Assembly: GCA_020850535.1 (NCBI GenBank)
Contig: JADZEM010000042.1
Span: 1 to 53,490, forward strand
DNA length: 53,490 nucleotides
Source: Chloroflexota bacterium
GTDB taxonomy: Bacteria; Chloroflexota; UBA6077; JACCZL01
Direction: 5' to 3'
In this document: piece after piece, positions 8,406 through 43,482 of the stretch
How the letters are laid out: every line of letters starts with the position of its first letter
Numbering within the stretch: position 1 is the stretch's first letter
Program-made: the position numbers and the translations under genes
The notes under the pieces: generated by a model
Seen by the model: the letters and a program-made list of their open reading frames with translations, nothing else
The model's database searches: none
What the model was told of the DNA's origin: nothing

Positions 8406-8407
8406 GG

Positions 8408-9070: not shown

Positions 9071-9088
9071 GAGGCCCTCACCCGCGTC

Positions 9089-11889: not shown

Positions 11890-12044
11890 GAGGCAACCTC
11901 TGACCGCCGTACCTCCTCGCTTGCTCGCGCCAGCGACAGGGGTACATGCATCAGTCTGCCATCGGCGCCTGGTGCATTCGACCGTACACCGACCGACCCG
12001 CACCACCCGGCGCAGCCAGGGATGCTGCAGCGCAGGAGCTCTCG

Positions 12045-26802: not shown

Positions 26803-26825
26803 GCCGATATTGCCGCAAGTTCCCA

Positions 26826-26990
26826 TGTCATCCTGAGCGCAGCGAAGGACCTCACCCGCTGACCGTCAACGCTCGCGTCAGCGGATGACCGTCATCGTGC
26901 GCCCCTCCCACACCGTCAACATTCGCGTCACCCGCTGACCGTCAACGTTCGCGTCAGCGGGTGAGGTCCTTCGCTGCGCTCAGGATGACA
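26826..26990. repeat. Palindromic element A2
   Basis: Arms TGTCATCCTGAGCGCAGCGA with AGGACCTCACCCGCTGAC (from 26826) and the exact reverse complement ending at 26990 flank a loop made of degenerate repeats of ACCGTCAACGTTCGCGTCA. A short heptad pair (CCCACGATCCACGAT, near 27018-27032) follows on the right. It lies between the hydrolase and the convergent giant gene and may help end both transcripts. Confidence 0.75.
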
Positions 26991-27035
26991 ACTGAAGCTT
27001 GCATGTTTTCACATAATTCCCACGATCCACGATCC

Positions 27036-30000
27036 CTACGGCCCGGCGTAGAGCTCCTCGACCAGCCGATCCAGGTTGACCTCCAGCACATCCGTCGTGC
27101 CGATGAGCAGCAGGCGATGCCGTCCCGGACCGCCGACGGCGACTGACTCCAGGGCCGTCCAACCCGGCGGCAGCCCCACGGTCTGACTGGCCCCGGTGTC
27201 CTGGCGCGTCAGCAGCAGCATGTTCGGGCGTACCTCGACCCAGAGCCACGGCGAGGCGTTCCCGAGCGCTGCCCGCCGCTCGGTGAACGGACGGTAGTCC
27301 GCCACGTCGAGCGGCGTCCGCCCGACAACCCCCGTCCCCGGCGCGTCCCGTGAGATCAGGCTGATGCCAGGGCGGGGGGGGCCATCGGGAGTCCAGCGGA
27401 TGCGCACGAACTCGAATGGCCCGTCCTCAACGGCCAGCAACCGCGCGCCCCGCGGCACGGCCAGCGGCAGCGGCTCGCGGGACGCGCCCGGCTGCTCCAA
27501 CCGGTAGAGGCCGTCGTCGCCGACGTAGGCAGGGGTGGTAGGATCGAGCATTGCCAGCGTGGCCGGGACACCACCCGCACCGGCAACGCTGGCCGCCAGT
27601 CCGCTGAACCCCTCCCCGACGATGCTCGTCCGCGTCAGCCGCTCGTCCAGCCGCAGCACGCCGGCCTGGGTTGGCAGCAGGTAGCCCGGACGGCCCTCCA
27701 CGAGGCTCGTGACCGGCAGGCCGAGCACCAGATCGTCGGTGAAGCGCCCGGTGCGCAACTGGCGTGTCGCGCCGCCTCCCCGTGCACGGATCGGCAGCAG
27801 CCCCGGCTGGGTCAGGTCACGCTCGTAGCGCCAGAGGTCGTCGTCGGCGAGGTGCTGCGGACACGCCTGCGGGTTGTCGCGCGAGCCGTCGTCGAAGAGG
27901 CGCAGGTAGCCGCCGACCGTCGCGCGGAGGCAGAGCGCCGTCCGCTGCTCGACGCGGGTCGTGCTGACGGCGTCAAAGGCGGTCGGATCGAGGTTGCCGA
28001 CGTCTGGCCGCCGCAGATCGAGCGCGTGGTAGCGGCTGCGTGGTGCTTGAATCCAGCCGGCATCGGTCCCGACCTCGACGGTCCCCGCTCGCGCCAATGC
28101 CACCGAGGACAGCCGGTCGAAGGTGAACCGCCCGCCGACGATCTGGAGGTCTTCGCCCTGGTCGCCGGGCGCGTCGCGGCTGAGCCAGCGGGCCGTCAGT
28201 GTGCCTGGCTGGCCGTCCCGTCGGCCGGTCAGTTGCCACCGCCAGCGGCCGGCCGCCTCCGGTGCGATCAGGGTCCGCTCGGCAAACGGATCGGCGGCGG
28301 GCAACCCCGGGAGCAGGGAGAACAGCCCCGAATCCCGCTGTCCGTCGAACGCCGCGCCCGGCGCGGTAGAGAAAACCAGCGTGCTGCTGTCACCGCAGCG
28401 GGCGCGGATCAGGCCGTCTGGCGTGGCCTCCAGGTCGGTGACGGTGCAGGGCCGGTCACCGTCGCGCGGCTCGCGGATGAGCGCCAGCGTATCCGGATCG
28501 AGAAGCGCGCGCCCGCTCGCTTCCCGCCCGAGCCGCACCAGCCCGGCTTCAGTGGCGGCCCAGAGATCGTTGCCGCGCTGGAGCACGGCTGACCAGCGGT
28601 CGATGGCGAGGCGACGGTCGCCGCTGGGGCTGGCCGACCAGGAGATCGGCTGCCAGTGACCGTCGAGCGCTTGCTGCTCGAAGATCGGGCCGACGCCGTC
28701 CTGAATCGGCAGGAGCCGTAGCCGCTGCCGCTCGAAGATCGGCGGGCGGGCGCGCCGCTCCTCCAGCCGCTGCTGCACGGTCGCATCGGCGAGGATGCTC
28801 CAGCCGGCCTGCGACCAGATCAGCCAGCGGCCGTCGTCCGTCACGCCGTAGAGTCCCGGCGCGATGACTGCCGTACCCGGTGCAGACGCCGGGATCGGCT
28901 GAGCCAGGCACACCAGCCGGCGGGGCGTCTGCTCTCCCGGGGGCGTGCTGCCGACCGGCGGAGACAGGCTCAGGTTGCTGCCGGCGTGTCCGGTCAGCCA
29001 GCCGGACTGCCAGAGCGTGAAGACCTTCCCGTCGCAGATGGCGGCGTCGGCAAGGGCGTCGTGCGGCAGCCGGCCGTTCGCGAAGGCCAGCGGGCTGGCG
29101 GGCCGACCCGTCAGGTCGCGGTACCAGCCTCGAACCTCGCCGCCGCCGTCCTGAGACCATTGCCAGAAGGCGTTCTGCACCCGCAATCGCTCGTCCAGCA
29201 GGGCCGGGTCGCGGCAGGGCGCAAACGCTGCCCCCGAGCCGCCGCTCCGCTCGATGCAGGCAGCAGCGGACCGGGCCATCAGCCGAGACGGATCGCCGAG
29301 CGGCTGGCCGACGCGGGTGACAGCGGCCAGCCCCGGCGCGGACGGGTCGCTCAGCGCGTAGAGGCCCTGCACATCGGCCAGGCCGGAGCCGCCCGCCGAG
29401 ACGGCCAGGCCGGCCGCGGTCCCGACGTACAGGTCGTTGCCGACCGTCGCGACGCTGGTCACCACGTCGAACGGGAAGCGGAACGCGCTGCCGCTCTGCA
29501 CGAAGCTGAACGCCGCCCAGGCCGAGCCGCCGCCCGCCAGATCGAGCCGTAGCTCCTTCCCGGTCTGCCCACCGGTGCGGGTCAGGCGCAGGCGGTCGGC
29601 GGCCACCAGCGGCAGGGTCGCGTACGGATCGGCCGACCCGCTGACCGCCTGAAACTGGCCGGTCGCGTCGTCGAGACGCCCGACAGCCCCGCCGGCTCGC
29701 CGGAACAGGCCCGTCGAGCCGTCCGCGAAGCGCACGTCTTCCAGGGTGTCGGCCGGGCTGGGCGCGAGGCGGCGGCCGGCCAGCCCCTTGAGGGCGTCCG
29801 CTGTGTCCGCGATCTCGAACAGACCGACCGTCATCAGGTGGAGGCGGCCAGCATGGGCGCTGCCGGTCAGCAGGCGGTCCGAGGTGAACCCGAAGCCGTC
29901 CGGCCCGAATGCCGCCGCGAATGCCTGGGCGTCGCCGCGCAGGGCCACCCCGATCTGGCCGTCCGCGAGCCGCCACGACCAGACAGCGTCGTCCAGCAGC

Positions 30001-33000
30001 GGGCGGTTGAGGGCTGGATCGGCCGGCAGGGGCTGCCACTGGCGGGCGGCAGCATCCGCGCGACGCCAGAGGCCGGCCGCGCCGCCGTCGAGCAAGGCTC
30101 CGCTGGTCCCTTCGGAGCGGAGGCGCCCGGCGCCCGTCCCCAGCCCGTTCGGCCCGCCGTCGAAGCCAGCCAGCGCATCGACGGGGTGGACCCCGGCGGC
30201 GCTCTGGAGCAGCAGCCGGCCGTCCTCGAAGGCGAGGCCGCGCCGGTCGGCGTCCCAGAGGAAGCCTCGCTCGGCAAGGGCGTCGACGGCGCTCCCGCCG
30301 AGGGCGAGTGTCGCGGCCACTCCCCGGCTCGGCTCCTCACGCAGCGTCACGTCCCCGATCTGCTGTACCAGCGCGCCGGCGCCAGCCTGGAGCGGCCCGG
30401 GCCGCCCCCCGCTGAGGGGGATCTCGCCGGCCGGCGTGGTGAAGCGGCCATGCGCGCCGACGATTGGTCCCGCCAGCGCCAGCGGTTGAAAGACCGTGTT
30501 CTGGTCGGTCAGCAGGAGGTCGGCGCGGCGATAGGTCAGGACGCCGCGCGCGTTGGCGACGTGGATCAGGTCGGCGCGCTCGGCCAGGAAGGCGTCGGCG
30601 ACCTCCCACAGCAGCCGGTCCCCGATCATCAGGTCGGATCGAGACAGGGAGACCGGACCGTTCGGGCCGGCCAGCACGAAGCTGGCGGTCTGCCGATCCC
30701 ACTGCAGCCAGCGCACGTTGAGCGGCGGGGCCGGATCGACCTGGAGCGCGCCGCGATCCGCCAGCCGGGTGCGAGTCGTCGGGCGGACGGCCAGCAGCGC
30801 GCCTCCCTGGTCAACCTCCAGCCGGGTGACCGGATCGAGCGCCAGCACGCCGCCCGGCGTGGCGGCCACGCTGCTCTGGAGGGTCGGCCAGCGATCCGGC
30901 AGGCCGCCGGACGCCGCGCCAGCGGGGGGAAGGGCGGGCGTGGACTGCGTCGGCGTGAAGCCCTGGCCGTTCCAGCTCTGCCAGCCGTCGTCCAGGCGTA
31001 CCCAGGCCTGCCCAAGGTCGTCCAGCACCAGCTCGCGAACGCCGCTCAGGGTGTCAGCCTGCAGGCCACGCGCGCCCTCGTCGGTCAGGACGGCCAGCGA
31101 CTCGCCGCCCAGGAGCAGCAGGCGCGCTCCCTGGCGGTAGGCCGTCAACGGCCCCGGCAGCGCCGCAACGGCCGGCGGCAGGTCGGCCCACTGCCCGGTG
31201 CGCGGGTCGTAGCCGCGCACACCGTCCGCCCCGACGATCGCGAACAGCTCGGGGCGCACCTCGAACGCCTGGAGCACGGCGGCCGGGTCGAGCGTGGCTG
31301 GTGCAGGCGTCGCCGTCCGGCAGGCGAACTGGCCGTTGGACAGGTCGCAACGGGTCACCTCGCCGCTCGGGAGCAGCCGCCAGACGGTCCCGTTGCCGTC
31401 GATGCCGGCCTGCTCGCCGGGCCGCAGCTCGGCCCGCGCGAAGCCCGGCGGCGTCTCGCCCAGCCCCGTGCCGACCAGCCAGGCCCGTCCGTTCTCGGCG
31501 GTCACGACGGCCCGGCCAAGCGCCAATCCAAGCTGTGCGGACGGGTCGGCGCTCGGCAGCGCAGCCTCGCCGGTCCAGGTGCGACGGCCGGGATCGTAGG
31601 TGCGGATGCGGTCCGGCAGCAGGAACGTCCAGCGGCCGCCGCCCCAGTCCTGCACGTCGAGGATCGACGAGGCCGGCGCGCCGAGCGTGGCGCTGCCGGC
31701 CGTGCTCGGCGTGAAGACCGGCGTCAGCGTCACCGCCGGGTCGGCCGGGCCAAGCGTGCCCACGAAGGCGTTGCCGCCGTCCGTCTGCGCCAGGACGGTC
31801 TCGGTGTCGCCGGCCCGTTCCACGTTCAGATCCACGATCTGCGAGACTGGTCCGGGGAACCGCGGCTGGATTGGCGTCCAGCGGCGGGCGGCGAGGTCGT
31901 ACCGCCAGAGCGGGCGGTCAGGCCGGTCGGTGGTTGCGAGGATCGTGCCGCCTGCGCCAGTCTGACGGACGTAGACCCGCCGGAGATCGGCCATGGCTGG
32001 CGCGTCGCCGGCGGGCGCGAGGATCTCGCGCGGGGTCTGCCCGGGCGTCCACTCCAGCACGGCCCCATCCGGGGTCAGCCACGCGACGCGGCCAGACGCC
32101 TCGTCTACGGCCACCGCGCGCACCGCGAACGACTCGCCCTGCACGGTCACGGGGTCCGTCGAACAACTCTCCGGCAGGCGCACCCCGGGGATCGGCGCGA
32201 TGGTCAGGCGACCCTCGGGCTGCGCGTCGTCCACCAGTACGAGGTGGCTGCCACCGGGCGTGTAGAGTCGGCCGCCGTGTGGGAGCAGGTTGGCGGGGCC
32301 ACGCAGCCAGGACCGGGCAGCGCTGCTGTAGAAGCGCAGGCCGGCGTCTGTCGCCACGGCCACCGTCCCATCCGAGAAGCCGCGCGCGTCGGTGACGCGG
32401 GTGGCGCCCTCGGCGGCCGGCGCGCGAAAGAAGCAGCGGGCGGCAGCGACGTTCGCGATCTCGTACAGCTTGAGGTAGGGGTGGCTGTCGCGCTCGCGGA
32501 CGGCGACGATCTGCCCCGCGGTGGTGGAGAGGCTGCGGACGGTCCCGCCGTCCGGGTCCAGCGGACGGTCGGCCAGGAACGCCTGCCCGCCGGTCAGGCT
32601 GAGCGGTCTGCCGTCCAGCAGGGCGCGGATCGCGACAGGCTCGTTGCCGGCCAGGGTCCAGCGGTCCCCGACGCGCCGGGTGGGGAGGTCGTACCGCTCG
32701 ACGCGCCCCTGGCCGCCCAGGAACAGATCGTTGCCCCGCAGGAGGGCGTCGCTGAGGCCGCCATCGCCGATGGTGAAGCCGCTCTCCCCGATCAGCACGG
32801 CGGCGTTGACACCCTGGCCGCCCTCCTGGACCAGCAGGTTGTCGGCGGTCCGCCCGAGCAGCCGGCCGGCCGGCCGCGCAAACTCGACGATCTCCTTGCC
32901 GAGGATGCGGAAGGTGTCGGACCACTCGCGGCGGGTGGCGCTGTAGCGGCGCAGGCCGGCGTCCGTCGCCGCGATCAGCCCGCCGTCTTCGTCGGCCACG

Positions 33001-34826
33001 TCCAGCAGGCGGGCACGGTCCAGTGCTGGCACAGCCGCGCCCGTCAGCCGCTGGACAGCCGCGCTCGTGACCCGGTAGACGCTGCCATCCGTCGCCAGCA
33101 GCCCGAGCGTCTGATCGGGCCAGACCCAGGTCCGGGCGTCGGCGTCCGGCAGGCTGGCCGGCGCCACGACCGGCTGGGCTTGCCGCAAGTCGCCACTGTA
33201 GTAGCTGCCGTCCGCCAGCCGCGCGCCGTCGAGCGTGAAGACCGCCGTACTGGTGGCCGAGGGCAGGATGGCGTACAGCCGGTCGGACGCGCTGACGAAG
33301 CGGAGGCCCGGCTGTTTGAGCCAGTCGGGGAGGTTGGCGGCCGGGACATCTTCGTAGCGGCGGCGGGCAACATCGTGCAGGAGTGCGCCGTCGGGGCCGA
33401 ACAGGACGACCGTCGTGCCAACGGCGAAGCCGGTCCGCAGCAGCTCCGGTGCGAGGTGCGTGCCGGTCCCGGCGTAGACGAGGCGGGCGTCAGCATTCCG
33501 GAGCAGGCTGTAGACGTTGCCGCGCTCGGTCAGCGCCAGCGCCTCGTTCGGTGCGCCCGGGGCCAGCCGCACGATCCGCTCGTCGCCAACCGACCAGCGG
33601 TCTTGGTCTACTTCCTGGAACAGGCCCGCGCCACCGGCGAAGGCGAAATAGAACCCCGAGCCATCGGGCAGGGGGAGCGTCGCCAGGATCGGGTCCGTGG
33701 CGATCTGCTCCCAGGCGTGACGCTGGGCATCGTAGGCGTAGACGCCCCGCTGGCCGGCCACTGCCAGGGTGTTGCCAGCGTACTGCGCGAAGCTCAGGCC
33801 GGTCAGGCTCAGCTCTGGGTAGAGACGGCGCTCGGCCACCATCTCGCGGAGGGGGCCGCCGAGCTGATCGAGTGCCACCAGCTGCTGGCAGCCGGTGATG
33901 CCGTTTTCGCAGGCCTGCCGCGCCAGCACGAACAGCGAGCCGTCAGGATCGGCGTCAAGACCGGCGATCTCGCCGGTGACCCCGGCGACGGACTCGACCC
34001 GCGCGCCCCCGTCGCTCGCCGTCAGCGAGGCCAGCCCCGCCGTGCCGCCGATCCAGAAGCGGTCGCGCCACCACGCGAGGTGGGTGACCCGCAGGCTCGG
34101 AAGCTGGCGGCTGATCTCGGCAGTCGGGAGCCAGCGATGCTCGCGCACGTCGTACAGGCCGATGCCGTCCTGGCGCGTGCCCACGGCCAGCCAGCGCCCA
34201 TCCGCCGAGACGGCGGCGGCGGTCAGGTCGGCATTCTCCAGCGGCTGCCCGGTCTGCCCGAGCAGGCTGCTGTCCCCGACCACCACGCCCCAGGCGCCGC
34301 CCGCCCGCCGCGCCAGGCCGCCGTCCCCGTTGAGCGCCCACAGCGAGGACGGATCGGGGCAGCGGCCGGCCTCCCGTGAGCGTGGATCGCTGCCGCAGCC
34401 GGAGCGTAGCTGCAGGAAGTCGCGGTTGAGCAGCCGATCAGCGAGCGGATCTTCGGTCTGCCAGAGGCCCGTGCGGGGATCGTAACGATGGACCGTGCCG
34501 CCGCGCTGCGCCGTGTAGGCGGCCCCCTCCGGCGCGTGGAGGACAGCCGACAGGAGGGGATCGGCGGGGAGACGGTCGCGGAGGTTGGTCAGGATGCGCT
34601 CGTCGGCCACCGGGCGAGCGGTCCAGGCGTTCAGCCAGCCGGCCCGGTCGGCCAGCTCGACGACGCCCACACAGAGCAAGACCAGCCCGCCCAGCAGCAA
34701 CCCGATCGTGACCAGGAAGATCGGATCGATCCGCCGCTTGAGCGGCAGCGTGTGCAGGGCGGCCCAGGTGGTAAGCCAGGAGCGGCGGTCAGGCGTGCGG
34801 CCGGGCGTGTGCCAGCGGGGGATCAT
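27036..34826 (-). CDS. Giant membrane-anchored propeller-like protein (about 2596 aa)
   Basis: ATG 34826 overlaps the stop of the upstream gene (ATGA). A single membrane segment (IFLVTIGLLLGGLVLLCVGV) lies near residues 36-58, after a basic, arginine-rich N-terminus, so the rest is predicted to be outside the membrane. The remaining 2500 residues consist of many degenerate beta-propeller-like units with the recurring pattern YD-x-x-x-x-x-W, for example VHRYDPRTGLWQTE, GLYDVREHRWLP, YAYDAQRHAWEQI, LRRYSATRREWSDTF, LWRYDLAARRWTPI, RTYDPGRRTWTGEA and RGYDPRTGQWADLP. No catalytic motif was found. It is the last and largest gene of the MoxR operon. The function is unknown; a large surface scaffold or sensor is my inference. 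Confidence 0.75.
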   Translation of the reverse strand: MIPRWHTPGRTPDRRSWLTTWAALHTLPLKRRIDPIFLVTIGLLLGGLVLLCVGVVELADRAGWLNAWTARPVADERILTNLRDRLPADPLLSAVLHAPEGAAYTAQRGGTVHRYDPRTGLWQTEDPLADRLLNRDFLQLRSGCGSDPRSREAGRCPDPSSLWALNGDGGLARRAGGAWGVVVGDSSLLGQTGQPLENADLTAAAVSADGRWLAVGTRQDGIGLYDVREHRWLPTAEISRQLPSLRVTHLAWWRDRFWIGGTAGLASLTASDGGARVESVAGVTGEIAGLDADPDGSLFVLARQACENGITGCQQLVALDQLGGPLREMVAERRLYPELSLTGLSFAQYAGNTLAVAGQRGVYAYDAQRHAWEQIATDPILATLPLPDGSGFYFAFAGGAGLFQEVDQDRWSVGDERIVRLAPGAPNEALALTERGNVYSLLRNADARLVYAGTGTHLAPELLRTGFAVGTTVVLFGPDGALLHDVARRRYEDVPAANLPDWLKQPGLRFVSASDRLYAILPSATSTAVFTLDGARLADGSYYSGDLRQAQPVVAPASLPDADARTWVWPDQTLGLLATDGSVYRVTSAAVQRLTGAAVPALDRARLLDVADEDGGLIAATDAGLRRYSATRREWSDTFRILGKEIVEFARPAGRLLGRTADNLLVQEGGQGVNAAVLIGESGFTIGDGGLSDALLRGNDLFLGGQGRVERYDLPTRRVGDRWTLAGNEPVAIRALLDGRPLSLTGGQAFLADRPLDPDGGTVRSLSTTAGQIVAVRERDSHPYLKLYEIANVAAARCFFRAPAAEGATRVTDARGFSDGTVAVATDAGLRFYSSAARSWLRGPANLLPHGGRLYTPGGSHLVLVDDAQPEGRLTIAPIPGVRLPESCSTDPVTVQGESFAVRAVAVDEASGRVAWLTPDGAVLEWTPGQTPREILAPAGDAPAMADLRRVYVRQTGAGGTILATTDRPDRPLWRYDLAARRWTPIQPRFPGPVSQIVDLNVERAGDTETVLAQTDGGNAFVGTLGPADPAVTLTPVFTPSTAGSATLGAPASSILDVQDWGGGRWTFLLPDRIRTYDPGRRTWTGEAALPSADPSAQLGLALGRAVVTAENGRAWLVGTGLGETPPGFARAELRPGEQAGIDGNGTVWRLLPSGEVTRCDLSNGQFACRTATPAPATLDPAAVLQAFEVRPELFAIVGADGVRGYDPRTGQWADLPPAVAALPGPLTAYRQGARLLLLGGESLAVLTDEGARGLQADTLSGVRELVLDDLGQAWVRLDDGWQSWNGQGFTPTQSTPALPPAGAASGGLPDRWPTLQSSVAATPGGVLALDPVTRLEVDQGGALLAVRPTTRTRLADRGALQVDPAPPLNVRWLQWDRQTASFVLAGPNGPVSLSRSDLMIGDRLLWEVADAFLAERADLIHVANARGVLTYRRADLLLTDQNTVFQPLALAGPIVGAHGRFTTPAGEIPLSGGRPGPLQAGAGALVQQIGDVTLREEPSRGVAATLALGGSAVDALAERGFLWDADRRGLAFEDGRLLLQSAAGVHPVDALAGFDGGPNGLGTGAGRLRSEGTSGALLDGGAAGLWRRADAAARQWQPLPADPALNRPLLDDAVWSWRLADGQIGVALRGDAQAFAAAFGPDGFGFTSDRLLTGSAHAGRLHLMTVGLFEIADTADALKGLAGRRLAPSPADTLEDVRFADGSTGLFRRAGGAVGRLDDATGQFQAVSGSADPYATLPLVAADRLRLTRTGGQTGKELRLDLAGGGSAWAAFSFVQSGSAFRFPFDVVTSVATVGNDLYVGTAAGLAVSAGGSGLADVQGLYALSDPSAPGLAAVTRVGQPLGDPSRLMARSAAACIERSGGSGAAFAPCRDPALLDERLRVQNAFWQWSQDGGGEVRGWYRDLTGRPASPLAFANGRLPHDALADAAICDGKVFTLWQSGWLTGHAGSNLSLSPPVGSTPPGEQTPRRLVCLAQPIPASAPGTAVIAPGLYGVTDDGRWLIWSQAGWSILADATVQQRLEERRARPPIFERQRLRLLPIQDGVGPIFEQQALDGHWQPISWSASPSGDRRLAIDRWSAVLQRGNDLWAATEAGLVRLGREASGRALLDPDTLALIREPRDGDRPCTVTDLEATPDGLIRARCGDSSTLVFSTAPGAAFDGQRDSGLFSLLPGLPAADPFAERTLIAPEAAGRWRWQLTGRRDGQPGTLTARWLSRDAPGDQGEDLQIVGGRFTFDRLSSVALARAGTVEVGTDAGWIQAPRSRYHALDLRRPDVGNLDPTAFDAVSTTRVEQRTALCLRATVGGYLRLFDDGSRDNPQACPQHLADDDLWRYERDLTQPGLLPIRARGGGATRQLRTGRFTDDLVLGLPVTSLVEGRPGYLLPTQAGVLRLDERLTRTSIVGEGFSGLAASVAGAGGVPATLAMLDPTTPAYVGDDGLYRLEQPGASREPLPLAVPRGARLLAVEDGPFEFVRIRWTPDGPPRPGISLISRDAPGTGVVGRTPLDVADYRPFTERRAALGNASPWLWVEVRPNMLLLTRQDTGASQTVGLPPGWTALESVAVGGPGRHRLLLIGTTDVLEVNLDRLVEELYAGP

Positions 34827-36496
34827 GCGTCCGGACCGCCCGCAAGCTGCATGGCCGTCTGCCGCTGGCGGGCCAGGGCCAGATCGTCGGGGTGGACGAC
34901 GCCGTTGGGGGACGCCCTGCCCGCCCACCCTTCCAGCCGGCCGTGCGGGTCGGCAGCGGCGATGCGCGCACAGACGGCGTACTGCTCGGCGTTCGGGAGG
35001 CCGGCCACCAGCCCCGAGAGCCGTGGCTCCAGGTCGGATGACCCAGACAGGGCGGCGTAGAGGTCGAGGCTCAGGGCCAGCGCTTCGACAGCCTCCAACG
35101 ACGCCTCGGCCAGGGCCGGCGCCTGCCCGAGATCGGCTACGAGCAGCGCAAGATCGAGGTGCAGTTGCCCGGCCAGAGCCAGTTGCTCCGGCGGGATGCT
35201 CGCGCCGAACGGCAGCGGGAGACTGCTCCCGCCACCGCTCCCCCCGCCGCGCGCCCCGAAGCGCCGTACCTCGACGATGCCGCGCACCCGCTCCAGCAGG
35301 TCGCGGCGGGCGTCCACGGCGACGGCCAGGGCGCGGAGCCGGCTCAGCGGGATCGCCTCGGCCAGGGCGCGCGCCCGATCCCCGCGCGCCTCGGCTGACT
35401 GCGCCGCGCGCGCCAGCCGCCGCTCGATCTCGGTCAGCAGATCCAGGTCTCGGGCGAAGGCCGCCAGGGTGAAGCCCGTGTCGGAGGGGGCGGCGTCAGC
35501 CCCGGCCTGAGCCGAACGCAAACCGTCCAGCAGCAGCGGCGCAACGTCCAGCAGCGGGCCGGCCAGGGCATCCTGTCGTTGGATGCGGACCGCCAGCAGA
35601 CCGCGCAACCAGATCGCTGCGACCTGGAGCGGCAGTAGGGACGGAACAACGGATCGCCCCTCACCCCCCGCCCCCCTCTCCCGCGCGCGGGAGAGGGGGA
35701 GTCCATACGCATCACCGGCGCGATCAAAGTCGTCCAGATGAGGCTTCAGCGGTCCAGGCGCAAATGGCGACAGCATGGTGAGGCGGATGGTCAGGAGGGT
35801 CAGGCGGATGGCGCGGCGGCAGGCGATGCCGCCGGCGTTCGGATGGGTCAGCAGGCGGCGGACGGCTTGCTTGCGCTCGTGGTCGGCGACCCGCAGCAGC
35901 AGCTCGCAGGCGAGGCCGCGCCGCCGGAGCACGCCGACCGACCGCACCAGTACGCCATCCAGCAGCGGCCAGCCGACTATCCAGCGGGCCATGACGGCGT
36001 GCGGCCGGCGCACAAACGAGCGGTCGCTCAGCCAGGAGGCCAGGAGCAGCGCCAGCAGCAGCGCCGCGAAGCCCCACCAGATCAGGCTGGTCGGCAGGAA
36101 CGCCGTGTAGGCATGCCCCTTGATCGGCAGGAAGACGCCGTCATGCAGGCCGTAGAGGGCCTGCCCAAGGGCGCCCTCACGGGGGACCAGCCGCCCCAGC
36201 ACGATGCCAACCACCAGCAGCAACGCCCCTCCGACACCCCCGGCGACAGTCGCCCGCCGCACGATCCGCTGCCGGCGGCCGAGGGTGGGCGGCTGCGGCA
36301 GCGACGCCAGCATCGGGGAGCGGATGCCGGCGTGCGGCGGGGCGGATGGGGCAGGGGTGGCCGATGGGCTGGGCGCGGCCTGCGGGTGGGTCGGCTGCCC
36401 GTCGCCCCCTGGCCCTGCTTGCATGGTGCCGGCCTGCTCGCCCGTAGGACGTGCCGGGGGGCGGGTACGGCTACGGGAGTCGAATCTTGCGGCCAC
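34823..36496 (-). CDS. Unknown membrane protein of the MoxR operon, 557 aa
   Basis: The GTG start is at 36496, three bases after the previous gene; ATG 36424 is an alternative. A Pro/Ala-rich N-terminus precedes two membrane segments (VAGGVGGALLLVVGIVLGRL near 85-105 and LIWWGFAALLLALLLASWLS near 135-155), followed by a long alpha-helical, Leu/Ala/Arg-rich domain. Around residues 263-280 an insertion reading LPLSRARERGAGGEGR comes from a palindromic DNA repeat (35657-35705) that keeps the frame. No known family is recognised. It is tightly coupled to the genes on both sides, so it should work with the giant membrane protein. Confidence 0.7.
   Translation of the reverse strand: MAARFDSRSRTRPPARPTGEQAGTMQAGPGGDGQPTHPQAAPSPSATPAPSAPPHAGIRSPMLASLPQPPTLGRRQRIVRRATVAGGVGGALLLVVGIVLGRLVPREGALGQALYGLHDGVFLPIKGHAYTAFLPTSLIWWGFAALLLALLLASWLSDRSFVRRPHAVMARWIVGWPLLDGVLVRSVGVLRRRGLACELLLRVADHERKQAVRRLLTHPNAGGIACRRAIRLTLLTIRLTMLSPFAPGPLKPHLDDFDRAGDAYGLPLSRARERGAGGEGRSVVPSLLPLQVAAIWLRGLLAVRIQRQDALAGPLLDVAPLLLDGLRSAQAGADAAPSDTGFTLAAFARDLDLLTEIERRLARAAQSAEARGDRARALAEAIPLSRLRALAVAVDARRDLLERVRGIVEVRRFGARGGGSGGGSSLPLPFGASIPPEQLALAGQLHLDLALLVADLGQAPALAEASLEAVEALALSLDLYAALSGSSDLEPRLSGLVAGLPNAEQYAVCARIAAADPHGRLEGWAGRASPNGVVHPDDLALARQRQTAMQLAGGPDA
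35657..35705. repeat. Palindromic repeat inside a coding sequence
   Basis: CCTCACCCCCCGCCCCCCTC followed by TCCCGCGCGCGGGAGAGGGG contains a perfect CCCTCTCCCGCGCGCGGGAGAGGG-type hairpin. It is in frame in the 557-aa gene. Related blocks occur at 21386-21438, and a CCTCACCCCCCG tract near 39999. Confidence 0.6.
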
Positions 36497-36499
36497 CGG

Positions 36500-37198
36500 T
36501 CAGTCGTCTCCCGAGAAGAACGGCTCGGAGCGGACCGGGTCGAAGCGCGGCGCAGCCGACCGCACCGACTCCATCATATCGAGGATCGAGCCCTGGTTCT
36601 GCTGCAGCAGCCAGATCAGCCCGACCAGTCCGGCCACGATCAGCGCCACGACGCCGTAGAAGAGGATGGCCTCACGGTTGACCCACAGCCAGACGATGGC
36701 GATCTGGAGCTGCAAGCTGAGGATGCGGAGGCGCAGGCGGATGGCGCGGGCGCTCCACCAGAGGGCCGCCCGCACTCGCCCGATCTCGTGCAGCTCGTGG
36801 CCGATGGCGCGCTGGTCAATCGGATGGCGGCGGCGGCCAATCGCCTCGATCTCGCGGCGCAGGGCCGGCAGCCGGTCTTCCAGCACCTGCTGACGGAGCG
36901 TCCAGCGGTCCGGCTCGACGCCGCGCGGCGGGCTGTCCAGCCGCACCAGCCCGAATGTCAGGAACAGCACCCAGGTCCGGACCAGCCGCTGCGCCCGTAA
37001 CGAGAGCCGTGCCGTCCAGAGAGGGGTCTGGTCCAGCCGCCAGCGCGGCGGCTCCGCGACGACCGCCTCGCCCATCTCGATGATCGCAGCGGCCTCGGCG
37101 GCCCCATCCGCGAGCCGGTCGGCCGGCTGACGGTAGACGGCGCGCAGGCCCAGCTCCGGGCGGCGCGGCGGGGCCGGCGTCGAAGCTTCCGCCGTCAC
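36500..37198 (-). CDS. Unknown membrane protein of the MoxR operon, 232 aa
   Basis: The GTG start overlaps the previous stop by four bases. The protein has an amphipathic, arginine-rich central helix region (RQQVLEDRLPALRREIEAIG) and a hydrophobic C-terminal half with two likely membrane segments (LQIAIVWLWVNREAILFYGV and ALIVAGLVGLIWLLQQN), ending in an acidic tail (RSEPFFSGDD). A weaker hydrophobic stretch occurs near residue 75. No known family is recognised. Its size and place between soluble and membrane partners suggest an adaptor that ties the 758-aa protein to the membrane; this is inference. Confidence 0.7.
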   Translation of the reverse strand: MTAEASTPAPPRRPELGLRAVYRQPADRLADGAAEAAAIIEMGEAVVAEPPRWRLDQTPLWTARLSLRAQRLVRTWVLFLTFGLVRLDSPPRGVEPDRWTLRQQVLEDRLPALRREIEAIGRRRHPIDQRAIGHELHEIGRVRAALWWSARAIRLRLRILSLQLQIAIVWLWVNREAILFYGVVALIVAGLVGLIWLLQQNQGSILDMMESVRSAAPRFDPVRSEPFFSGDD

Positions 37199-39471
37199 AG
37201 CAGCTCGTCCAGCAGCTTTTCGAGGTGTTCGCGGGTCGCCTTGAGGCGCGTGGCGGCCTCCGCGATCTCCTTGTTGGCGGTGACGCGGACGGTGTCGGCG
37301 CGCAGCACGGCCTGCTGGGCCTTGCTCAACTGCGCGTTGTAGTAGGCGTTGAGGCCGTCGGCTGCCGCGCCGGCCTCCTGAGCCATGCCGGTCACCTCGG
37401 CGTCGAGTCGGCGCATGTCCAGGCGGGTCGTGTCGAGATCGCGCAGCCGGTTCTTGAGGCGGACCACGTCGGTGGTGGTGCGCTGCGCCCGCTCGATCAG
37501 GCCGGCCATCTCCTTGTTCAGGGCGTCGAGCAGCTCGCGCAGGCGGGCCGCGACGTGCGCGTTGGCGGCCTCAACGGTCCGGTCGAACGTCTCCTCGGCG
37601 GCGTCGGCCCGCGCGGTGATCGTCCCGACCACCGCCTCGCGGGTGCGGGCGTCCGCGATCTCGGCGATGATGTCATCGACGTCGGGATCGGGGCGCATCG
37701 CTTCGAGGTTGGTGTTGATCCAGCCGATGCGCTGCTGGAGCGGCACGAAGCCGTCGCGGTCCAGCACGCTGACGTGGATGGTGGCGTGCAGGTCGGCCGG
37801 GCCGTCGAAGAGGTAGACGGCACGCTCGGGCAGGCTGTCGTCCGCGTCCGGATCGATAGACTGCCCCGTCATCGGACCAGCGGTCGGGCCAAACCAGCGG
37901 CTCACGGCGAACCGCAGGTACTCGCGCATCTCCCCGACGTTCCAGTCGTGCATGGCGGGGAACAGGGCCGTCCCGTACGGCACGAAGACCAGGCAGTCGT
38001 CGCGCTCACTCTGCTCGTCGAGGTAGTAGCGCGCCCAGTACGGGTCGAGCCAGAAGCGCATCGTCGGGCCGCCGAGCGGCATCTCCGGAAACCGCAGCTT
38101 CTCGGTCATCGCGCCGGTCAGCGACGGATCGACCAGCAGGTAGTGCAGCCCGGAGCGCTCGCCGGGGACCGGCTCGCCGCCGCGCGCGCCAGCGGCCGGC
38201 TGAAAAGCGTACTGCAAGTGGCCTTCAGCCAGGACGCGCGGCGGGTAGGCGCGCAGCACGTCGGCCAGCCCCGCCAACTGCTGCTGGCTGAAGCGGTAGA
38301 GGACCGGCTTCTGGAGGGTGATGCTCCGCAGGGCCGCGCGTCGCAGCTCGAGGTCGAAGATCTCCTGGTCCAGCCGGGCCAGCTCGCCCTCCTCGGGCGG
38401 CTCGGCGTAGTCGGTCGGGCGCAGCTCCAGGCGGTAGCCGATGCCCGCGCCAGACCGCTCGATGACATCGCGCAGGCGGTTGGCGATGGCCGGGCTGCTT
38501 CGCAGATCGACGACCTCGAAGGCGCCTGCACGGCGGCGCGGCTCCAGGTCGACGCGGTCGCGGAACTGGAGGCCGGCCAGGTAGGCCACGGCGAACCGGG
38601 CCGTGTCGGGGCCGCCCGGGTAGACGGCCACCAGTCGCTCGTCGCGGTCGGGGCGTGCGCCAGCAGGGGGTGGGGCTGCAGTCGTCATCGGGGCGGCGGG
38701 GCCGACCGCGGTGACGGGGCCAGCGCCGCTCGTCAGCGGCAGCGCCCGCACGACCTCCCGGAAGGCGGCAAGCTCGGCGCGGCCGGGTGCGAGCGCGGCC
38801 GGCAGGAAGACCTTCGCGCCGCCGCCCGCGTCGAAACAGGCCAGCTGCACACAGTCCGCGAACCACTCGCCGGCCAGCGCGCCCTGGAACGTCGAGCGGC
38901 GGCCACGGTCGTCGCGGATGTGGAAGAGGAAGACGCCGGCGTCTTCCAGGCCGCCACGCCCGCCCGCCGGACTCGGCCAGCGGTCGCCGCGCGTTTCGGC
39001 CACCAGCGTCCGGACGCTCGTCGCGTCGAAGGCGGCATCCTCCAGGATCTGCGCCGCCCGTTCCCCGTCGATGCCCTCGGCGACCAGCAGGCATTCCGAC
39101 GGCTCGGGCGGCACGGGATCGTCGGAGGGCTGGAGCAGCAGCCGGGCCAGCCCCTCGGCCAGCGGGCAGGTGTCGTCGGTGGAGATGCCGCGGGGCGACG
39201 GCAGGATGTTGCCCACCCGCTCGCTGTAGGCCCGCAGCAGGGCGTCGGTGGCCTGCTGCCGGCCGGGCGCCGCTCCCCGGCCCTCAGCGACCGGAGCCAG
39301 CAGCGTCGCGCTGGCGATCGCCCCGAGCACCTCGATGCTGACCCGCACCTCCAACAGGGGGGTTGGATCGAGGCGGGCGGCGCGGAGCCCCACCGCTGCA
39401 CCGGCCAGGATCTGGAGCGCGGTCAGCGGGCTGAGGTTGTCGAGCACCAGGAACAGGCTGCGTTCAGCCAC
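37195..39471 (-). CDS. Unknown 758-aa protein of the MoxR operon with C-terminal coiled coil
   Basis: The GTG start overlaps the previous gene by eight bases. The N-terminus MAERSLFLVLDNLSPLTALQ leads into an alpha/beta domain. A second globular part follows a proline-rich linker (residues about 250-280), with blocks RFWLDPYWARYYLDEQSERD and CLVFVPYGTALFPAMHDWNV. From about residue 590 the sequence is a long coiled coil rich in R/E/A/L (RTREAVVGTITARADAAEET and onward), ending RLKATREHLEKLLDELL. No signal peptide or membrane segment is seen. I do not recognise a family. The coiled coil suggests assembly or partner binding within the operon's complex. Confidence 0.7.
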   Translation of the reverse strand: MAERSLFLVLDNLSPLTALQILAGAAVGLRAARLDPTPLLEVRVSIEVLGAIASATLLAPVAEGRGAAPGRQQATDALLRAYSERVGNILPSPRGISTDDTCPLAEGLARLLLQPSDDPVPPEPSECLLVAEGIDGERAAQILEDAAFDATSVRTLVAETRGDRWPSPAGGRGGLEDAGVFLFHIRDDRGRRSTFQGALAGEWFADCVQLACFDAGGGAKVFLPAALAPGRAELAAFREVVRALPLTSGAGPVTAVGPAAPMTTAAPPPAGARPDRDERLVAVYPGGPDTARFAVAYLAGLQFRDRVDLEPRRRAGAFEVVDLRSSPAIANRLRDVIERSGAGIGYRLELRPTDYAEPPEEGELARLDQEIFDLELRRAALRSITLQKPVLYRFSQQQLAGLADVLRAYPPRVLAEGHLQYAFQPAAGARGGEPVPGERSGLHYLLVDPSLTGAMTEKLRFPEMPLGGPTMRFWLDPYWARYYLDEQSERDDCLVFVPYGTALFPAMHDWNVGEMREYLRFAVSRWFGPTAGPMTGQSIDPDADDSLPERAVYLFDGPADLHATIHVSVLDRDGFVPLQQRIGWINTNLEAMRPDPDVDDIIAEIADARTREAVVGTITARADAAEETFDRTVEAANAHVAARLRELLDALNKEMAGLIERAQRTTTDVVRLKNRLRDLDTTRLDMRRLDAEVTGMAQEAGAAADGLNAYYNAQLSKAQQAVLRADTVRVTANKEIAEAATRLKATREHLEKLLDELL

Positions 39472-41425
39472 CGCTCAGATCCTCCGTGACGCCCGTCAGC
39501 CAGGTGGTGACCAGCCGTCCAGCCAGCTCGTGCTCGTCAAGGGTGTCAGGCGGCGCGTCCTCGTCCGCCAGCCGCACGCCGACGCGCCGACGAGTGTCGA
39601 CGGTCCAGCCGCCCGCGTCCGAGAGGTCGTCGGGCGTCCAGGTGACGCTGACCTGCCGGTCGGCCCGTGCGCCCATCCCCAGCCGCGCCCGCAGCTCACG
39701 GATGACGGTCCGGGCGCTGTCCAGCCCGAGGCCGTCGCGTGGGCGCATGGCGGCCGGCAGGAAGAGCATGACGTGGACGTAGGCGAAGCTCTCGACGGGG
39801 GCGGCGTCGGCGGGCGCGCCCGGATGCGGACGCCGGCCGTTCCGCTGGTGCGTGGCCCGGCCGGAGCCGCGCACGGTGTAGCTGGCGTGGCCGCCGCGTG
39901 GCTGCTGCGCGCGCCAGCACTGGACGACCCACTCGGGCACGAGAGAGCGGCCGGTGGACTCCAGCAGGATGTCGTCGGGATCGGGGATGCCGGGATGGCC
40001 CTCACCCCCCGTCCCTCCGCTGCGCGGTGCGAATACCGGCTTCGCCGACATCATCTCGGCTGCGCCGCCTCTCCGTGTCGCCGATATCCCTGTGTGCGGG
40101 AGCGGGGAGTCCCCCTGAAGCTGTCCACGTTCATCTACTGAGGCGCCGCGAGGCGGCATAGGGGTGTCGCCCTGGAAGTGTGCGCGCTCGTCCACGTAGC
40201 CGGGCAGCCAGCGCATCGCGTTCAGCAGCCCTTCGCGCCGGCCCTGGCTCAGCTGCACGGGGTCGTCGGCGGCGTCCGAGAGCGGGATGTCCTCCAGGCC
40301 AAAGGTGCAGGCGCGGAACCGCTCGAAGGCGTCTCCTTCGAGCCACCGTAGCTCGCTCTTGAGCAGCTGGTGCTGGCGCAGCAGGGTGCTGAGCCGCAGC
40401 GCGAAGTCTACCCAGCTCGCCTTGACGAGATCGCCGCCGGCCCGCCCGGCCAGCGACGGCGGCAGCATCCCGACCACCAGCACGTCGCGGACGCGCTGCC
40501 GGCGCGGCTTGCGCTCCAGGGCGTAGTAGCCGGTGTTGAGCAACCGGTCCAGCCGGATCGCCCTCGGCATCATCATCTCGCTCAGGAGCATGGCCGGCAG
40601 ATCTTCGTCGCGGTGGGTGAGGTGGATGCCGACGTAGCCAGCCTCGCGCCGCCGCTGGCCGCCGGTTGGGGCAGTCGGGGTGGGCAACTGTCGGCGGCGT
40701 GCCCACGCGCTGTCGGTCAGGCGGGGACGCAGCCGAAGCAGCAGCCCCAGCTCGACAGGGTCCGAGGACGGCAGCGCCCGCGAGCCTGACCCATCCGTGC
40801 CTCGCCGCACCAGCCCGGCGAGGGTGGCGGCCGGCTCGAACCAGAACGGATCGCGGGGCAGCTCGCCGGTCTCGGGATCGGGAGCAGGAACCTTCGACGC
40901 CCGGTCGAGGATCGCCGTTGCCAGCTCTTGCATGTAGCGCGTGTACGCCTCGGGCGAGACTGACGTGCCGGCGTCGTCGGCGGCGAACAGGCAGTTCTGC
41001 CCGATCTCTGCGCAGGCCGCCAGGATCAGCGGCGTCAACACCTTCAGGACGGTGTACGTGCCAGACGCGCCCAGGGCGATGCCGCCGTGGTACTGGCCGG
41101 CCCGCGGGCCGTCCCGTGCGGGTGGGGTGATCTCCTGGACCAGCCGCCGCAGCACCACCTGCCAGCCGCGCTCACCGCCGGATGCCCCGCCGCGCGCGCT
41201 GGTGCGGGGATCGAGCAGCAGCGGCACGAGCTGCGAGACCAGCCAGGGGGTGATCCCGACGTGGCGATTGTGGAGCGTCCAGAGGACCGTCTCGGCGAGG
41301 CGCGCGGCGGCCGGTCCGTGTGGGGCCAGCATGGCGAACGCATCGGCCACCTGGGGCTGCCAGACGCGCGGCGCGACGAGCCGCACCTGAAGCTCGCTGA
41401 GCGGGGCCGGGGGCGGGGGAGGCAC
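39464..41425 (-). CDS. Unknown 653-aa protein of the MoxR operon
   Basis: The GTG start is preceded by AGGAG. Blocks that may define a family are GQYHGGIALGASGTYTVLKV, GQNCLFAADDAGTSVSPEAY, SEMMMPRAIRLDRLLNTGYY and DVLVVGMLPPSLAGRAGGDL. The C-terminal part (SFAYVHVMLFLPAAMRPRDG) is alpha/beta-like. No MIDAS-type DxSxS motif of vWA domains was found, although vWA proteins often accompany MoxR ATPases. Residues about 415-480 are a low-complexity, repeat-derived insertion in which DERAHFQGD and DERGQLQGD are tandem copies. No membrane segment is seen. The function is unknown. Confidence 0.7.
   Translation of the reverse strand: MPPPPPAPLSELQVRLVAPRVWQPQVADAFAMLAPHGPAAARLAETVLWTLHNRHVGITPWLVSQLVPLLLDPRTSARGGASGGERGWQVVLRRLVQEITPPARDGPRAGQYHGGIALGASGTYTVLKVLTPLILAACAEIGQNCLFAADDAGTSVSPEAYTRYMQELATAILDRASKVPAPDPETGELPRDPFWFEPAATLAGLVRRGTDGSGSRALPSSDPVELGLLLRLRPRLTDSAWARRRQLPTPTAPTGGQRRREAGYVGIHLTHRDEDLPAMLLSEMMMPRAIRLDRLLNTGYYALERKPRRQRVRDVLVVGMLPPSLAGRAGGDLVKASWVDFALRLSTLLRQHQLLKSELRWLEGDAFERFRACTFGLEDIPLSDAADDPVQLSQGRREGLLNAMRWLPGYVDERAHFQGDTPMPPRGASVDERGQLQGDSPLPHTGISATRRGGAAEMMSAKPVFAPRSGGTGGEGHPGIPDPDDILLESTGRSLVPEWVVQCWRAQQPRGGHASYTVRGSGRATHQRNGRRPHPGAPADAAPVESFAYVHVMLFLPAAMRPRDGLGLDSARTVIRELRARLGMGARADRQVSVTWTPDDLSDAGGWTVDTRRRVGVRLADEDAPPDTLDEHELAGRLVTTWLTGVTEDLSGG
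39997..40190. repeat. Repeat-derived insertion inside the 653-aa gene
   Basis: The stretch starts with CCTCACCCCCCGTCCCTCCG, shared in part with 35657-35705. It continues with two related segments CTGAAGCTGTCCACG and CTGGAAGTGTGCGCG that encode DERGQLQGD and DERAHFQGD. Flanking protein sequence (GIPDPDDILLES and MRWLPGYV) looks like normal conserved sequence, so the block appears inserted without breaking the frame. Confidence 0.5.
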
Positions 41426-41440
41426 GGGCCTGCTGCTCCT

Positions 41441-42478
41441 CTATCTGACCAGCGCTCGGTTCAGCTTCCGCACCACTTCGTCGTCGGCCCGGTCCAGGAA
41501 GAACCGCCCGACCAGCCCCAGCTCGGCCGGCCCCAGCGTCAGCGACCGCTCGTCCAGCTCACCGCGCCGCACGGAACGGTACACGCAGTGCAGCAGCATG
41601 ATGTGGAGCATCTTCACCAGCCGCCGATTCGACATCTCGGAGAGGTCGTCGTCGCGGGTGATCCGGATCAGGCGGGCCAGCTCCTGGAAGAATGGGCTGC
41701 GCTCCTGGGGCTGGAGCACGCCACGGTCGGTCAGCTCGCGGATCTCGTCGCGGAGGTCGTCGGCAAGCTCCAGCAGCGTGGTGTAGACGCGCGAGCCGCC
41801 ACGGCTGCCGAACGTCTCGGCCCAGCCGCGCGTCAGCAGCGTCCCGACCCGTTCTGGCCCGCCAGGGACGTGGACGTCCACGTTCTTGACGGTGCAGCGC
41901 AGCAGGAAGCGGTCGAAGACGGCCCGCAGCTCGGGAGTGTCGGGGATCTCGTTGGTGGCGGCGAAGAGGCACTGCAACTGGACGGGCGTGCGCTCGCCAC
42001 GGTCGTGAAAGACGCGCTCGTTCATGACGGCGAGCAGCGAGTTGAGGATGGCGCTCGATCCGTTGAAGACCTCGTCGAGGTAGACGACGCGCGCCGACTG
42101 GAGCCAGTCCCCGGACAGCCGCACCAGCCGGCCGTGGGTGGCCGCCTGGGCCACGTCGTAGAACCCGAACAGCTCGCCCGGCTCGGTGAACGGCGTCAGC
42201 AGGTACTCGAAGTAGTGCGGGTGGCGAACCTGCGGGTTCTCCAGGTCGAGCAGGCCCAGCAGGTTGCAGAACGCGCGGATCAGCCGCGACTTGGCCGTCC
42301 CGGGCGGCCCGACCAGCAGCAGCGCCTCGCCGCTGAGGATCGAGAGCATCAGGGCGTCAATCGCCTCGTCCAGGCCGGAGAAGCGGCCCTTCAGCTCGTC
42401 CTCGACCTGCCCAAGCTGCCCGAACAGCTCGCCGTGCTGCCGCGCCAGCCAGATCAGCGGTTGTGCGGGGAAGACCAT
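41441..42478 (-). CDS. MoxR-type AAA+ ATPase
   Basis: The product is 345 aa from ATG 42478; the frame stays open further upstream, but that part is a shadow of the neighbouring gene. Walker A is GPPGTAKS (57-64), Walker B is VVYLDEVF (131-138), sensor 1 is LFAATNE with Asn176, and FDRFLLR (188-194) gives the likely arginine finger. HGRLVRLSGDWLQSARV is typical of RavA/MoxR proteins. MoxR ATPases remodel or insert cofactors into protein partners, usually with vWA proteins; here the partners would be the downstream unknowns. It is separated by eight bases from the upstream 331-aa gene and 15 bases from the downstream 653-aa gene. Confidence 0.9.
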   Translation of the reverse strand: MVFPAQPLIWLARQHGELFGQLGQVEDELKGRFSGLDEAIDALMLSILSGEALLLVGPPGTAKSRLIRAFCNLLGLLDLENPQVRHPHYFEYLLTPFTEPGELFGFYDVAQAATHGRLVRLSGDWLQSARVVYLDEVFNGSSAILNSLLAVMNERVFHDRGERTPVQLQCLFAATNEIPDTPELRAVFDRFLLRCTVKNVDVHVPGGPERVGTLLTRGWAETFGSRGGSRVYTTLLELADDLRDEIRELTDRGVLQPQERSPFFQELARLIRITRDDDLSEMSNRRLVKMLHIMLLHCVYRSVRRGELDERSLTLGPAELGLVGRFFLDRADDEVVRKLNRALVR

Positions 42479-42486
42479 GGGCGCCG

Positions 42487-43482
42487 CTATCCTCCGACCA
42501 GTGCCCGGGGATCGTACTGGCTGGCCAACCAGGCTGGCCGGTCGGCCTCCCACGACGGATGGGCGAGCAGCGGCAGCGTGGTCACCGGCGGTGTCCCCCG
42601 AGCGTCCGTGCGCTGCGAGGATACGTGTCCCAGCGCCTCGCTGACAACGGGAAGGTCTGTCAGGCCCTTGCGGAGCGCGGCCGGCAGGGGCGGATGCCCG
42701 CCGTGCCAGGCCAGGATCGCCTGCATGATGACGTACTGGTCCCAGAAGCCGGCCCAGCCGCTGACAGCCAGCGTCTGGACACTGGCCTGCTGTCCCAGGG
42801 CGCGTGCGGCCTGCCGCCGGCGGGTGGCCCGGGTGGGGATCCACTCCCAGCGGCTGAACGGCAGCCGGCCCCAGAGCGTCCACCCGACGCGTCCGAGCTG
42901 GGCCGCGAGCCGGCCCGGGGAGCGCAGGGTGTCTCTCCGAAACAGGCCGCGCAGCGCCGGCCCGAGCGCTGGTGTGTGCGGCGCCTGGGCCAGCGCCAGC
43001 AGCGCCCAGAATGTCCCCGGCGCGAAGACGGGGGTGGGCAGGCCGCCCTGCGGGAAGAGGTACTGTTCCTGGAGGACGCCTCTCGCCAGCAGGGCGGCCT
43101 CGCGCTGGAAGGCGGGGCTGGCCCAGGCGCGCTCGGCGACCGTCGGCCAGAGGAAGTCGGGGAGGTAGCCGGGGGTGGTCTGCCCGATTCGGGACCGCAA
43201 CTGGCTCCAGACCCGCCGCTGCCAGACGGCCGGTGAGAGGCCGCGTCTGGTGGCCCGGGCGACGGTCACCCGGTAGCTGACGGGGGCCAGCCGATGGCCC
43301 TGGCGCGTCGCCAGCTTCCGCGCGACGCCGTCTGGCAGGAGATCGGCCAGGGAGGGGCGCTCGTCGTCGGCGTTCGCCAGCAACGCCTGTCGCAGCAGCC
43401 CCAGCCCGAGATCGCGCAGCAGGCCGGTCGCCTCGTCCAACGGGAGCGCGGCAAAGTCGAGCGCGGGAGTGCGCCGCCTCAT
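42487..43482 (-). CDS. Unknown 331-aa protein, first gene of the MoxR operon
   Basis: ATG 43482 opens the operon. The protein is soluble, basic and rich in Arg, Ala, Leu and Trp. Blocks include ALDFAALPLDEATGLLRDLG, RLAPVSYRVTVARATRRGLS and WAGFWDQYVIMQAILAWHGG. No catalytic motif, membrane segment or known domain was found. Its tight spacing to the MoxR gene suggests it is a dedicated partner or substrate adaptor of that ATPase. A promoter should lie in 43483-43736, but I could not identify one with confidence. Confidence 0.65.
   Translation of the reverse strand: MRRRTPALDFAALPLDEATGLLRDLGLGLLRQALLANADDERPSLADLLPDGVARKLATRQGHRLAPVSYRVTVARATRRGLSPAVWQRRVWSQLRSRIGQTTPGYLPDFLWPTVAERAWASPAFQREAALLARGVLQEQYLFPQGGLPTPVFAPGTFWALLALAQAPHTPALGPALRGLFRRDTLRSPGRLAAQLGRVGWTLWGRLPFSRWEWIPTRATRRRQAARALGQQASVQTLAVSGWAGFWDQYVIMQAILAWHGGHPPLPAALRKGLTDLPVVSEALGHVSSQRTDARGTPPVTTLPLLAHPSWEADRPAWLASQYDPRALVGG

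Follow-up and report, generated by a model that had tools for sequence, protein, structure and literature searches.

MoxR ATPases paired with vWA proteins are widespread, and few of these pairs have a known client. In NorQ/NorD, maturation of a membrane enzyme requires both ATP hydrolysis, which is supplied by NorQ, and the MIDAS motif, which the vWA domain of NorD needs in order to act on its client (PMC9976466). In the propeller ternary systems a GxxxTAKS P-loop is frequent in the MoxR protein, and the third component of the MoxR-vWA-beta-propeller system combines a variable N-terminal region, a membrane segment, TPR and a propeller (PMC7159879); vWA proteins without the aspartates have been described in the FtsH and propeller classes (Kaur et al., PMC7159879). 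The locus described here concerns how a cytoplasmic ring could act on partners beyond the membrane.

The window analysed is a stretch of 53,490 nucleotides from a Chloroflexota bacterium (contig JADZEM010000042.1), in which an initial annotation had recognised a seven-gene unit around a MoxR ATPase. It is clear from comparison with other genomes that the seven operon genes and a second cassette, comprising an upstream gene, MoxR1, DUF58, vWA1 and vWA2, form one co-inherited set. The missing MIDAS partners were found through phylogenetic co-occurrence and not through gene neighbourhood in the window genome, and a reading of a single window can miss half a system.

Layout and conservation of the operon

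Seven open reading frames, all on the minus strand and closely packed, occupy positions 27036-43482 (Table 1). The junctions, taken in order from the 331-aa gene to the giant gene, measure +8, +15, -8, -4, +3 and -4 bp, which agrees with the spacing first described, from 8-base overlaps to 15-base gaps, and makes a single transcript for the seven genes likely. Because G+C-rich DNA carries long false antisense frames, conservation and not length was used as the test of each gene, and a 1513-aa plus-strand frame antisense to the giant gene (29838-34379) is put down to the base composition of G+C-rich coding sequence. Chance is excluded for the seven frames, since counterparts in the same order occur in Niveispirillum and Paracoccus and most are also present at other loci. 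The MoxR, 653-aa, 758-aa and giant proteins have clear tblastn matches, in order; for the 331-, 232- and 557-aa families, HMMs built with the window left out were searched against the 172 open reading frames of the window. Where contigs permit reading, the gene order is 331, bpMoxR, 653, 758, 232, 557 and giant protein, and the linkage of this gene set with MoxR, proposed at the outset as a check, held across lineages. The description of the unit as seven minus-strand genes with mostly unrecognised products is thus borne out, the MoxR gene alone passing the Pfam cut-off. In the intergenic stretch 26820-27010, beyond the giant gene, short sequences around gaggtccttcgctgcgctcaggatgac and cgctgacgcgaacgttgacggtcagcggg recur, some copies being inverted, and the stretch looks like a dispersed intergenic repeat.

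Table 1. Genes of the operon, by position in the window.
Feature	Position	Strand	Remarks
331-aa family	42487..43482	-	no transmembrane segment; no Pfam match
bpMoxR, MoxR-clade AAA+ ATPase, RavA-like, 345 aa	41441..42478	-	Pfam PF20030, E 1.7e-48
653-aa family	39464..41425	-	orthologues of 23-34% identity in 7 loci
758-aa family	37195..39471	-	orthologues of 20-34% identity; marker gene for distribution
232-aa protein	36500..37198	-	one transmembrane segment near C-terminus
557-aa protein	34823..36496	-	two N-terminal-proximal transmembrane helices, large C-terminal helical part
2596-aa giant protein	27036..34826	-	collinear orthologues of 2663, 2750 and ~2730 aa

Properties of the operon proteins

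The ATPase, which starts at an ATG at 42478 and carries the P-loop GPPGTAKS and the Walker B motif VVYLDEV, is of a known kind, its Pfam match being to bpMoxR, the MoxR family of the ternary systems published with vWA and beta-propeller partners. This match is not specific, because E. coli and other control genomes also score above cut-off with the PF20030 model. In the tree, the window copy and seven other system MoxRs form one clade (97/99) beside E. coli RavA and distant from MoxR1, within which the window protein groups weakly (86/70) with the Aminicenantes bpMoxR. Seven of the eight have the P-loop GPPGTAKS and the eighth has TGKS; a TAKS-type P-loop is also found outside the system, in the MoxRs of L010, from the window's phylum, and of the archaeon L014. 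Both of these were considered as members and rejected as RavA-side relatives outside the system clade, and no homologue of the other operon genes was detected in the compared stretch of either, apart from a short, weak antisense match in L010. The L014 gene, from a Desulfurococcales archaeon, lies near genes for a 1578-aa and other unknown proteins (2409-12424) and possibly belongs to a different archaeal MoxR system.

None of the 331-, 653- and 758-aa and MoxR proteins has a convincing membrane helix, the hydropathy peaks of MoxR and of the 758-aa protein being treated as globular. An HMM from seven copies in other genomes, with the window left out, finds the 331-aa protein among the 172 window frames at E 6.7e-27, and tblastn matches to it occur in L013, L031, L042 and L015/L016; since its gene is located between vWA2 and bpMoxR in other genomes, it joins the two cassettes. 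The AlphaFold2 (AF2) model of the 653-aa protein (mean pLDDT 50) has a helical N-terminal half and an alpha/beta C-terminal half, the latter with the vWA-like order strand-helix-strand-strand-helix, strand-helix-strand and a final helix. With this model Foldseek gave no significant match and no E-value below 0.4; the best match was a vWFA domain (E 0.49, probability 0.69), and several of the top 50 were vWA domains. At the positions equivalent to DxSxS the window protein reads GMLPP, and none of the orthologues has DxSxS. The 653-aa protein may be a degenerate vWA protein without the MIDAS residues, a reading put forward as a hypothesis because hhalign detected no signal between the family and vWA2 or between the family and ViaA (probability 0.2 on a 0-100 scale in the latter case); the aspartate-less vWA proteins of Kaur et al. 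fit this assignment but do not prove it.

The 758-aa protein is modelled, at low confidence, with a mixed alpha/beta region of about 590 N-terminal residues and a long C-terminal coiled coil (about 598-757). Its model (pLDDT 50) likewise had no significant Foldseek match. A PII-like match of the 758-aa model (Foldseek E 0.05) was dismissed as low-confidence, and a DxSxT string at residue 448 was rejected as a MIDAS since it is not conserved in orthologues. In sequence searches of solved structures, the 653 and 758 families matched nothing except through the 758 coiled coil, for which the matches were mostly to apolipoproteins, designed bundles and other coiled coils.

The 232-aa protein is the positional equivalent of 150-154-aa proteins at other loci, to which it shows weak similarity (tblastn E 0.008 to L012; leave-out HMM full-sequence E 0.083, ranked top of 172), and a tentative homology is suggested mainly by position and topology. 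The 557-aa protein is recovered by its leave-window-out HMM at E 1.9e-29 among the 172 frames, and its two helices, which lie near the N-terminus, recur in L013, L016 and L027; by the positive-inside rule both ends are predicted to be inside and the C-terminal part cytoplasmic.

The giant protein has a basic N-terminus and one transmembrane helix (38-56), followed by about 2540 residues. Sixteen of its 17 cysteines form eight pairs, the positions of which recur in the Niveispirillum and Paracoccus proteins (18 and 20 cysteines, respectively). The single N-terminal helix and the eight conserved cysteine pairs indicate that the bulk of the protein probably lies outside the cytoplasm, and the conserved pairing suggests disulfides there. 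It had been described as a membrane-anchored propeller: the anchor is present, and the propeller is plausible but weak, as WD40 and Kelch matches fall below the Pfam threshold, a 48-residue autocorrelation of beta-propensity was seen in the window protein only, and a profile of the orthologues matched no solved structure. In Paracoccus (L015 14725-24653) a weak peptidoglycan-binding match, below cut-off at E 0.011, lies at the C-terminal end of the giant protein, and the gene that follows encodes a protein with a weak TerB_N match.

The second cassette and the distribution of the set

Directly upstream of the operon in Niveispirillum, both Paracoccus plasmids and the alphaproteobacterial genome G729 are genes for MoxR1 (AAA_3), DUF58, vWA1 and vWA2; in L013 Pfam identifies MoxR1 as AAA_3, DUF58, vWA1 by a weak BatA match, and vWA2. 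The window genome holds the same genes unlinked to the operon, with MoxR1, DUF58 and vWA1 adjacent on contig 13 (tblastn with the L013 proteins) and vWA2 on contig 200 (979-3636). The latter contig, of 8.4 kb, contains no other system gene, and the neighbours of vWA2 are, by eye, PRC-barrel-like and pyruvate-dehydrogenase-like genes. The contig-13 MoxR1 groups in one clade (99/100) with the MoxR1 proteins of the system, and five other MoxR paralogues from the window genome fall outside it. In G794, from the Aminicenantes phylum, vWA2, MoxR1, DUF58 and vWA1 lie on a contig that has 141 identical bases of overlap with the contig of the operon. The alphaproteobacterial MAG G401 has vWA1, vWA2 and the 331 gene on one contig and MoxR on another; these contigs match at their ends over 100 bases at 86% and probably adjoin. 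In the Aminicenantes MAG vWA2 adjoins the 331 gene on another contig. A further gene lies upstream of MoxR1 in several carriers, including the window genome (L053 11571-13559, L054 11787-13292, L025 264-2417); its product has a hydrophobic region close to the N-terminus, at least in L054 and L025, and it is a possible twelfth member.

Both MIDAS vWA proteins are membrane-anchored, and in the window genome both retain an intact DxSxS. vWA2 has two vWA domains, each with an invariant DxSxS, the second also with a conserved GGT and downstream Asp; it has two invariant cysteines and two N-terminal helices, and the arginine-rich loop between these helices places the vWA domains, as predicted by the positive-inside rule, outside the membrane.

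Homologous gene sets occur at seven other loci: two Paracoccus megaplasmids, Niveispirillum, two further alphaproteobacterial genomes and two genomes of the Aminicenantes phylum. A genome-wide scan with the MoxR protein returned an Aminicenantes MAG, an alphaproteobacterial MAG, Niveispirillum and one archaeon, and in the first three tblastn found 653- and 758-family genes directly after MoxR. The full set is present on Paracoccus versutus pBEN and P. aminovorans p_IV, both typed as conjugative, which were the only two records found in a plasmid search for more copies. Surveys added G729 and G794 as carriers. Of 400 genomes searched in the window's phylum, only the window genome has the 758 family, which was also found in 3 of 385 alphaproteobacteria and 2 of 199 genomes of the Aminicenantes phylum, and vWA2, searched with a query from genomes where it is linked to the operon, occurs in exactly the same genomes (the same 3/385 and 2/199, and 1/121); vWA1 was found in 1 of 121 relatives, the window genome alone. 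The probability of this 758/vWA2 agreement by chance is about 1e-9 with the query-source genomes left out, a figure that assumes simple sampling, ignores relatedness and serves only as a guide. Because the two families occur in identical genomes, the statement that no partner has a MIDAS, which a pattern search upholds for the operon itself, does not extend to the system; the agreement shows a shared fate and is not proof of direct contact. The patchy spread across lineages suggests horizontal transfer.

Several carriers have additional genes nearby. Before the operon of the Aminicenantes MAG (L011 50-7794) are two near-identical genes of 311 and 323 aa that by eye are Rpn-transposase-like, along with a STAND-like ATPase with WD40 repeats and a CHAT-peptidase-like protein, also by eye. 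In G794 (L027 6301-10949) a family 9 glycosyltransferase gene lies between the 557-like and giant genes, and the 758- and 557-like genes are separated by CBS-domain and PIN-like genes.

A proposed envelope machine and its relation to known systems

We consider it moderately probable that the operon is the bpMoxR half of a two-ATPase, envelope-spanning machine for remodelling or assembly, and an ATP-driven assembly at the envelope, as first proposed, remains the best reading after the evidence of gene set, MIDAS motifs and topology. This reading is favoured because gene order is conserved in eight loci and the 758 and vWA2 genome sets are identical; because in the window genome MoxR1, DUF58 and vWA1 adjoin, MoxR1 belongs to the system clade and DxSxS is kept; because topology and paired cysteines put the giant protein and vWA2 outside the membrane; and because the NorD MIDAS acts on the client while NorQ hydrolyses ATP (PMC9976466). 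In such a machine bpMoxR would form a cytoplasmic ring working with the 653-aa protein, possibly a MIDAS-less vWA adaptor, and the 758-aa coiled-coil protein, and the 232- and 557-aa membrane proteins would transmit ATP-driven movement to the outside face of the membrane. Outside, the MIDAS vWA domains (two in vWA2, one in vWA1) would bind acidic residues of a client, and the giant disulfide-bonded protein would be scaffold, receptor or client. If the machine works as NorQ/NorD and RavA/ViaA do, hydrolysis of ATP would serve to remodel a bound protein, or to load it, in the membrane or beyond, and the biological role may be either maturation of an envelope complex or defence. We infer the mechanism from the analogy with these two systems, and the topology and disulfides from the protein sequences. 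That two MoxRs, membrane adaptors, outer MIDAS vWA proteins and a disulfide-bonded protein of more than 2500 residues constitute a new class of trans-envelope machine, in which cytoplasmic ATP hydrolysis would remodel a structure beyond the membrane, is a tentative possibility.

The view implied by the initial annotation, that the operon works by itself as a MoxR system without vWA proteins and has no relation to the vWA cassette found elsewhere, agrees with the location of the two on different contigs in the window genome, but they are contiguous at four other loci and probably at a fifth, the genome sets are identical in three surveys and MoxR1 forms a system-specific clade; largely refuted by co-occurrence, it is now very improbable. 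It is rather unlikely that the set serves, in the manner of NorQD or the mxa genes, as a chaperone dedicated to maturing a single extracytoplasmic (metallo)enzyme or respiratory complex, the giant protein being its client or cofactor-loading platform, since no enzyme gene is conserved at the locus across lineages and the neighbours vary by genome. In favour of this explanation, the MoxR1-DUF58-vWA-vWA cassette resembles Bat/Mxa-type clusters. Maturation is also the established role of MoxR-vWA pairs (PMC9976466, PMC3893208).

A role in biological conflict, anti-phage or inter-bacterial, would make the set a divergent branch of the MoxR-vWA-beta-propeller systems, in which the giant protein senses the invader and the ATPase sets the threshold. 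Such a role is consistent with the bpMoxR match and the GxxxTAKS P-loop of that class in seven of eight members (PMC7159879), with the patchy, probably transferred distribution and the Paracoccus copies on conjugative megaplasmids, and with a propeller-like partner anchored in the membrane. It is nonetheless unlikely: PADLOC returned no model match of note (only MkoA, rejected at E 0.0054 over 38 residues of the ATPase), no member has an effector domain and Pfam matched no VMAP, inactive STAND, EAD or effector domain in any operon protein, the window flanks include ordinary metabolic genes, and all parts are collinear with no hypervariable region seen.

For the preferred reading as an envelope machine, the rare co-inherited set of 11-12 genes is a parts list with inferred topology, and its presence in Paracoccus and Niveispirillum places it in culturable bacteria. 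The gene combination is novel within the collections searched; literature searches for it yielded, besides general work on MoxR, only the papers of Kaur and Burroughs and a related one in PNAS (2024). The initial statement that the partners match no known MoxR system stands insofar as most belong to nameless families, but bpMoxR is a named family, and vWA proteins, DUF58 and a second MoxR belong to the set.

NorQ-NorD of Paracoccus is alike in principle, a MoxR ring and a MIDAS vWA protein remodelling a membrane complex (PMC9976466), but has a known client and lacks a giant protein, DUF58 and a second MoxR. E. coli RavA is the nearest characterised AAA+ relative of bpMoxR (38% over 167 aa), and a partner with a helical N-terminal and a vWA C-terminal part, as in RavA-ViaA, would parallel a vWA-like 653-aa protein; in contrast, the ATPase here has 345 aa and RavA 498 aa, the partners are many more, and the 653-aa protein has no profile similarity to ViaA. 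The operons of MoxR-proper, DUF58 and BatA-type vWA proteins are reproduced by MoxR1 (AAA_3), DUF58, vWA1 (weak BatA match) and vWA2, with adjacent MoxR (AAA_3), DUF58 and MIDAS vWA genes present both in L013 (Pfam) and on contig 13 of the window genome (tblastn), but here this cassette is tied to a RavA-type MoxR operon with the 653-, 758-, 232- and 557-aa and giant proteins. The MoxR-vWA-beta-propeller systems (subsystem 4 of Kaur et al., 2020; PMC7159879) share bpMoxR, the GxxxTAKS P-loop, a membrane-anchored propeller-like partner, extra genes of unknown superfamily and possibly, in the 653-aa protein, a divergent vWA without the MIDAS aspartates. They differ in that here the giant protein is separate, no non-MoxR operon protein is above the Pfam cut-off, and there is an extra MoxR1-DUF58-vWA1-vWA2 cassette. 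Compared with the third component of those systems, the giant protein has the membrane helix, weak propeller matches, no TPR match and an N-terminal region not seen to be hypervariable. No propeller family was detected by sequence in the 653-aa protein, vWA1 or vWA2, and domains of the bpX series, the other curated Pfam domains of the MoxR-vWA-beta-propeller system, had no match at E up to 1 in the operon proteins or the 653 and 758 orthologues (for A2, among the first 25 of 34 families). The operon is not filed as a member of subsystem 4, because sequence searches showed no vWA-propeller fusion and, at these thresholds, none of the other Pfam domains; the machine is best read as related to the published MoxR-vWA-beta-propeller systems rather than as an established member of them.
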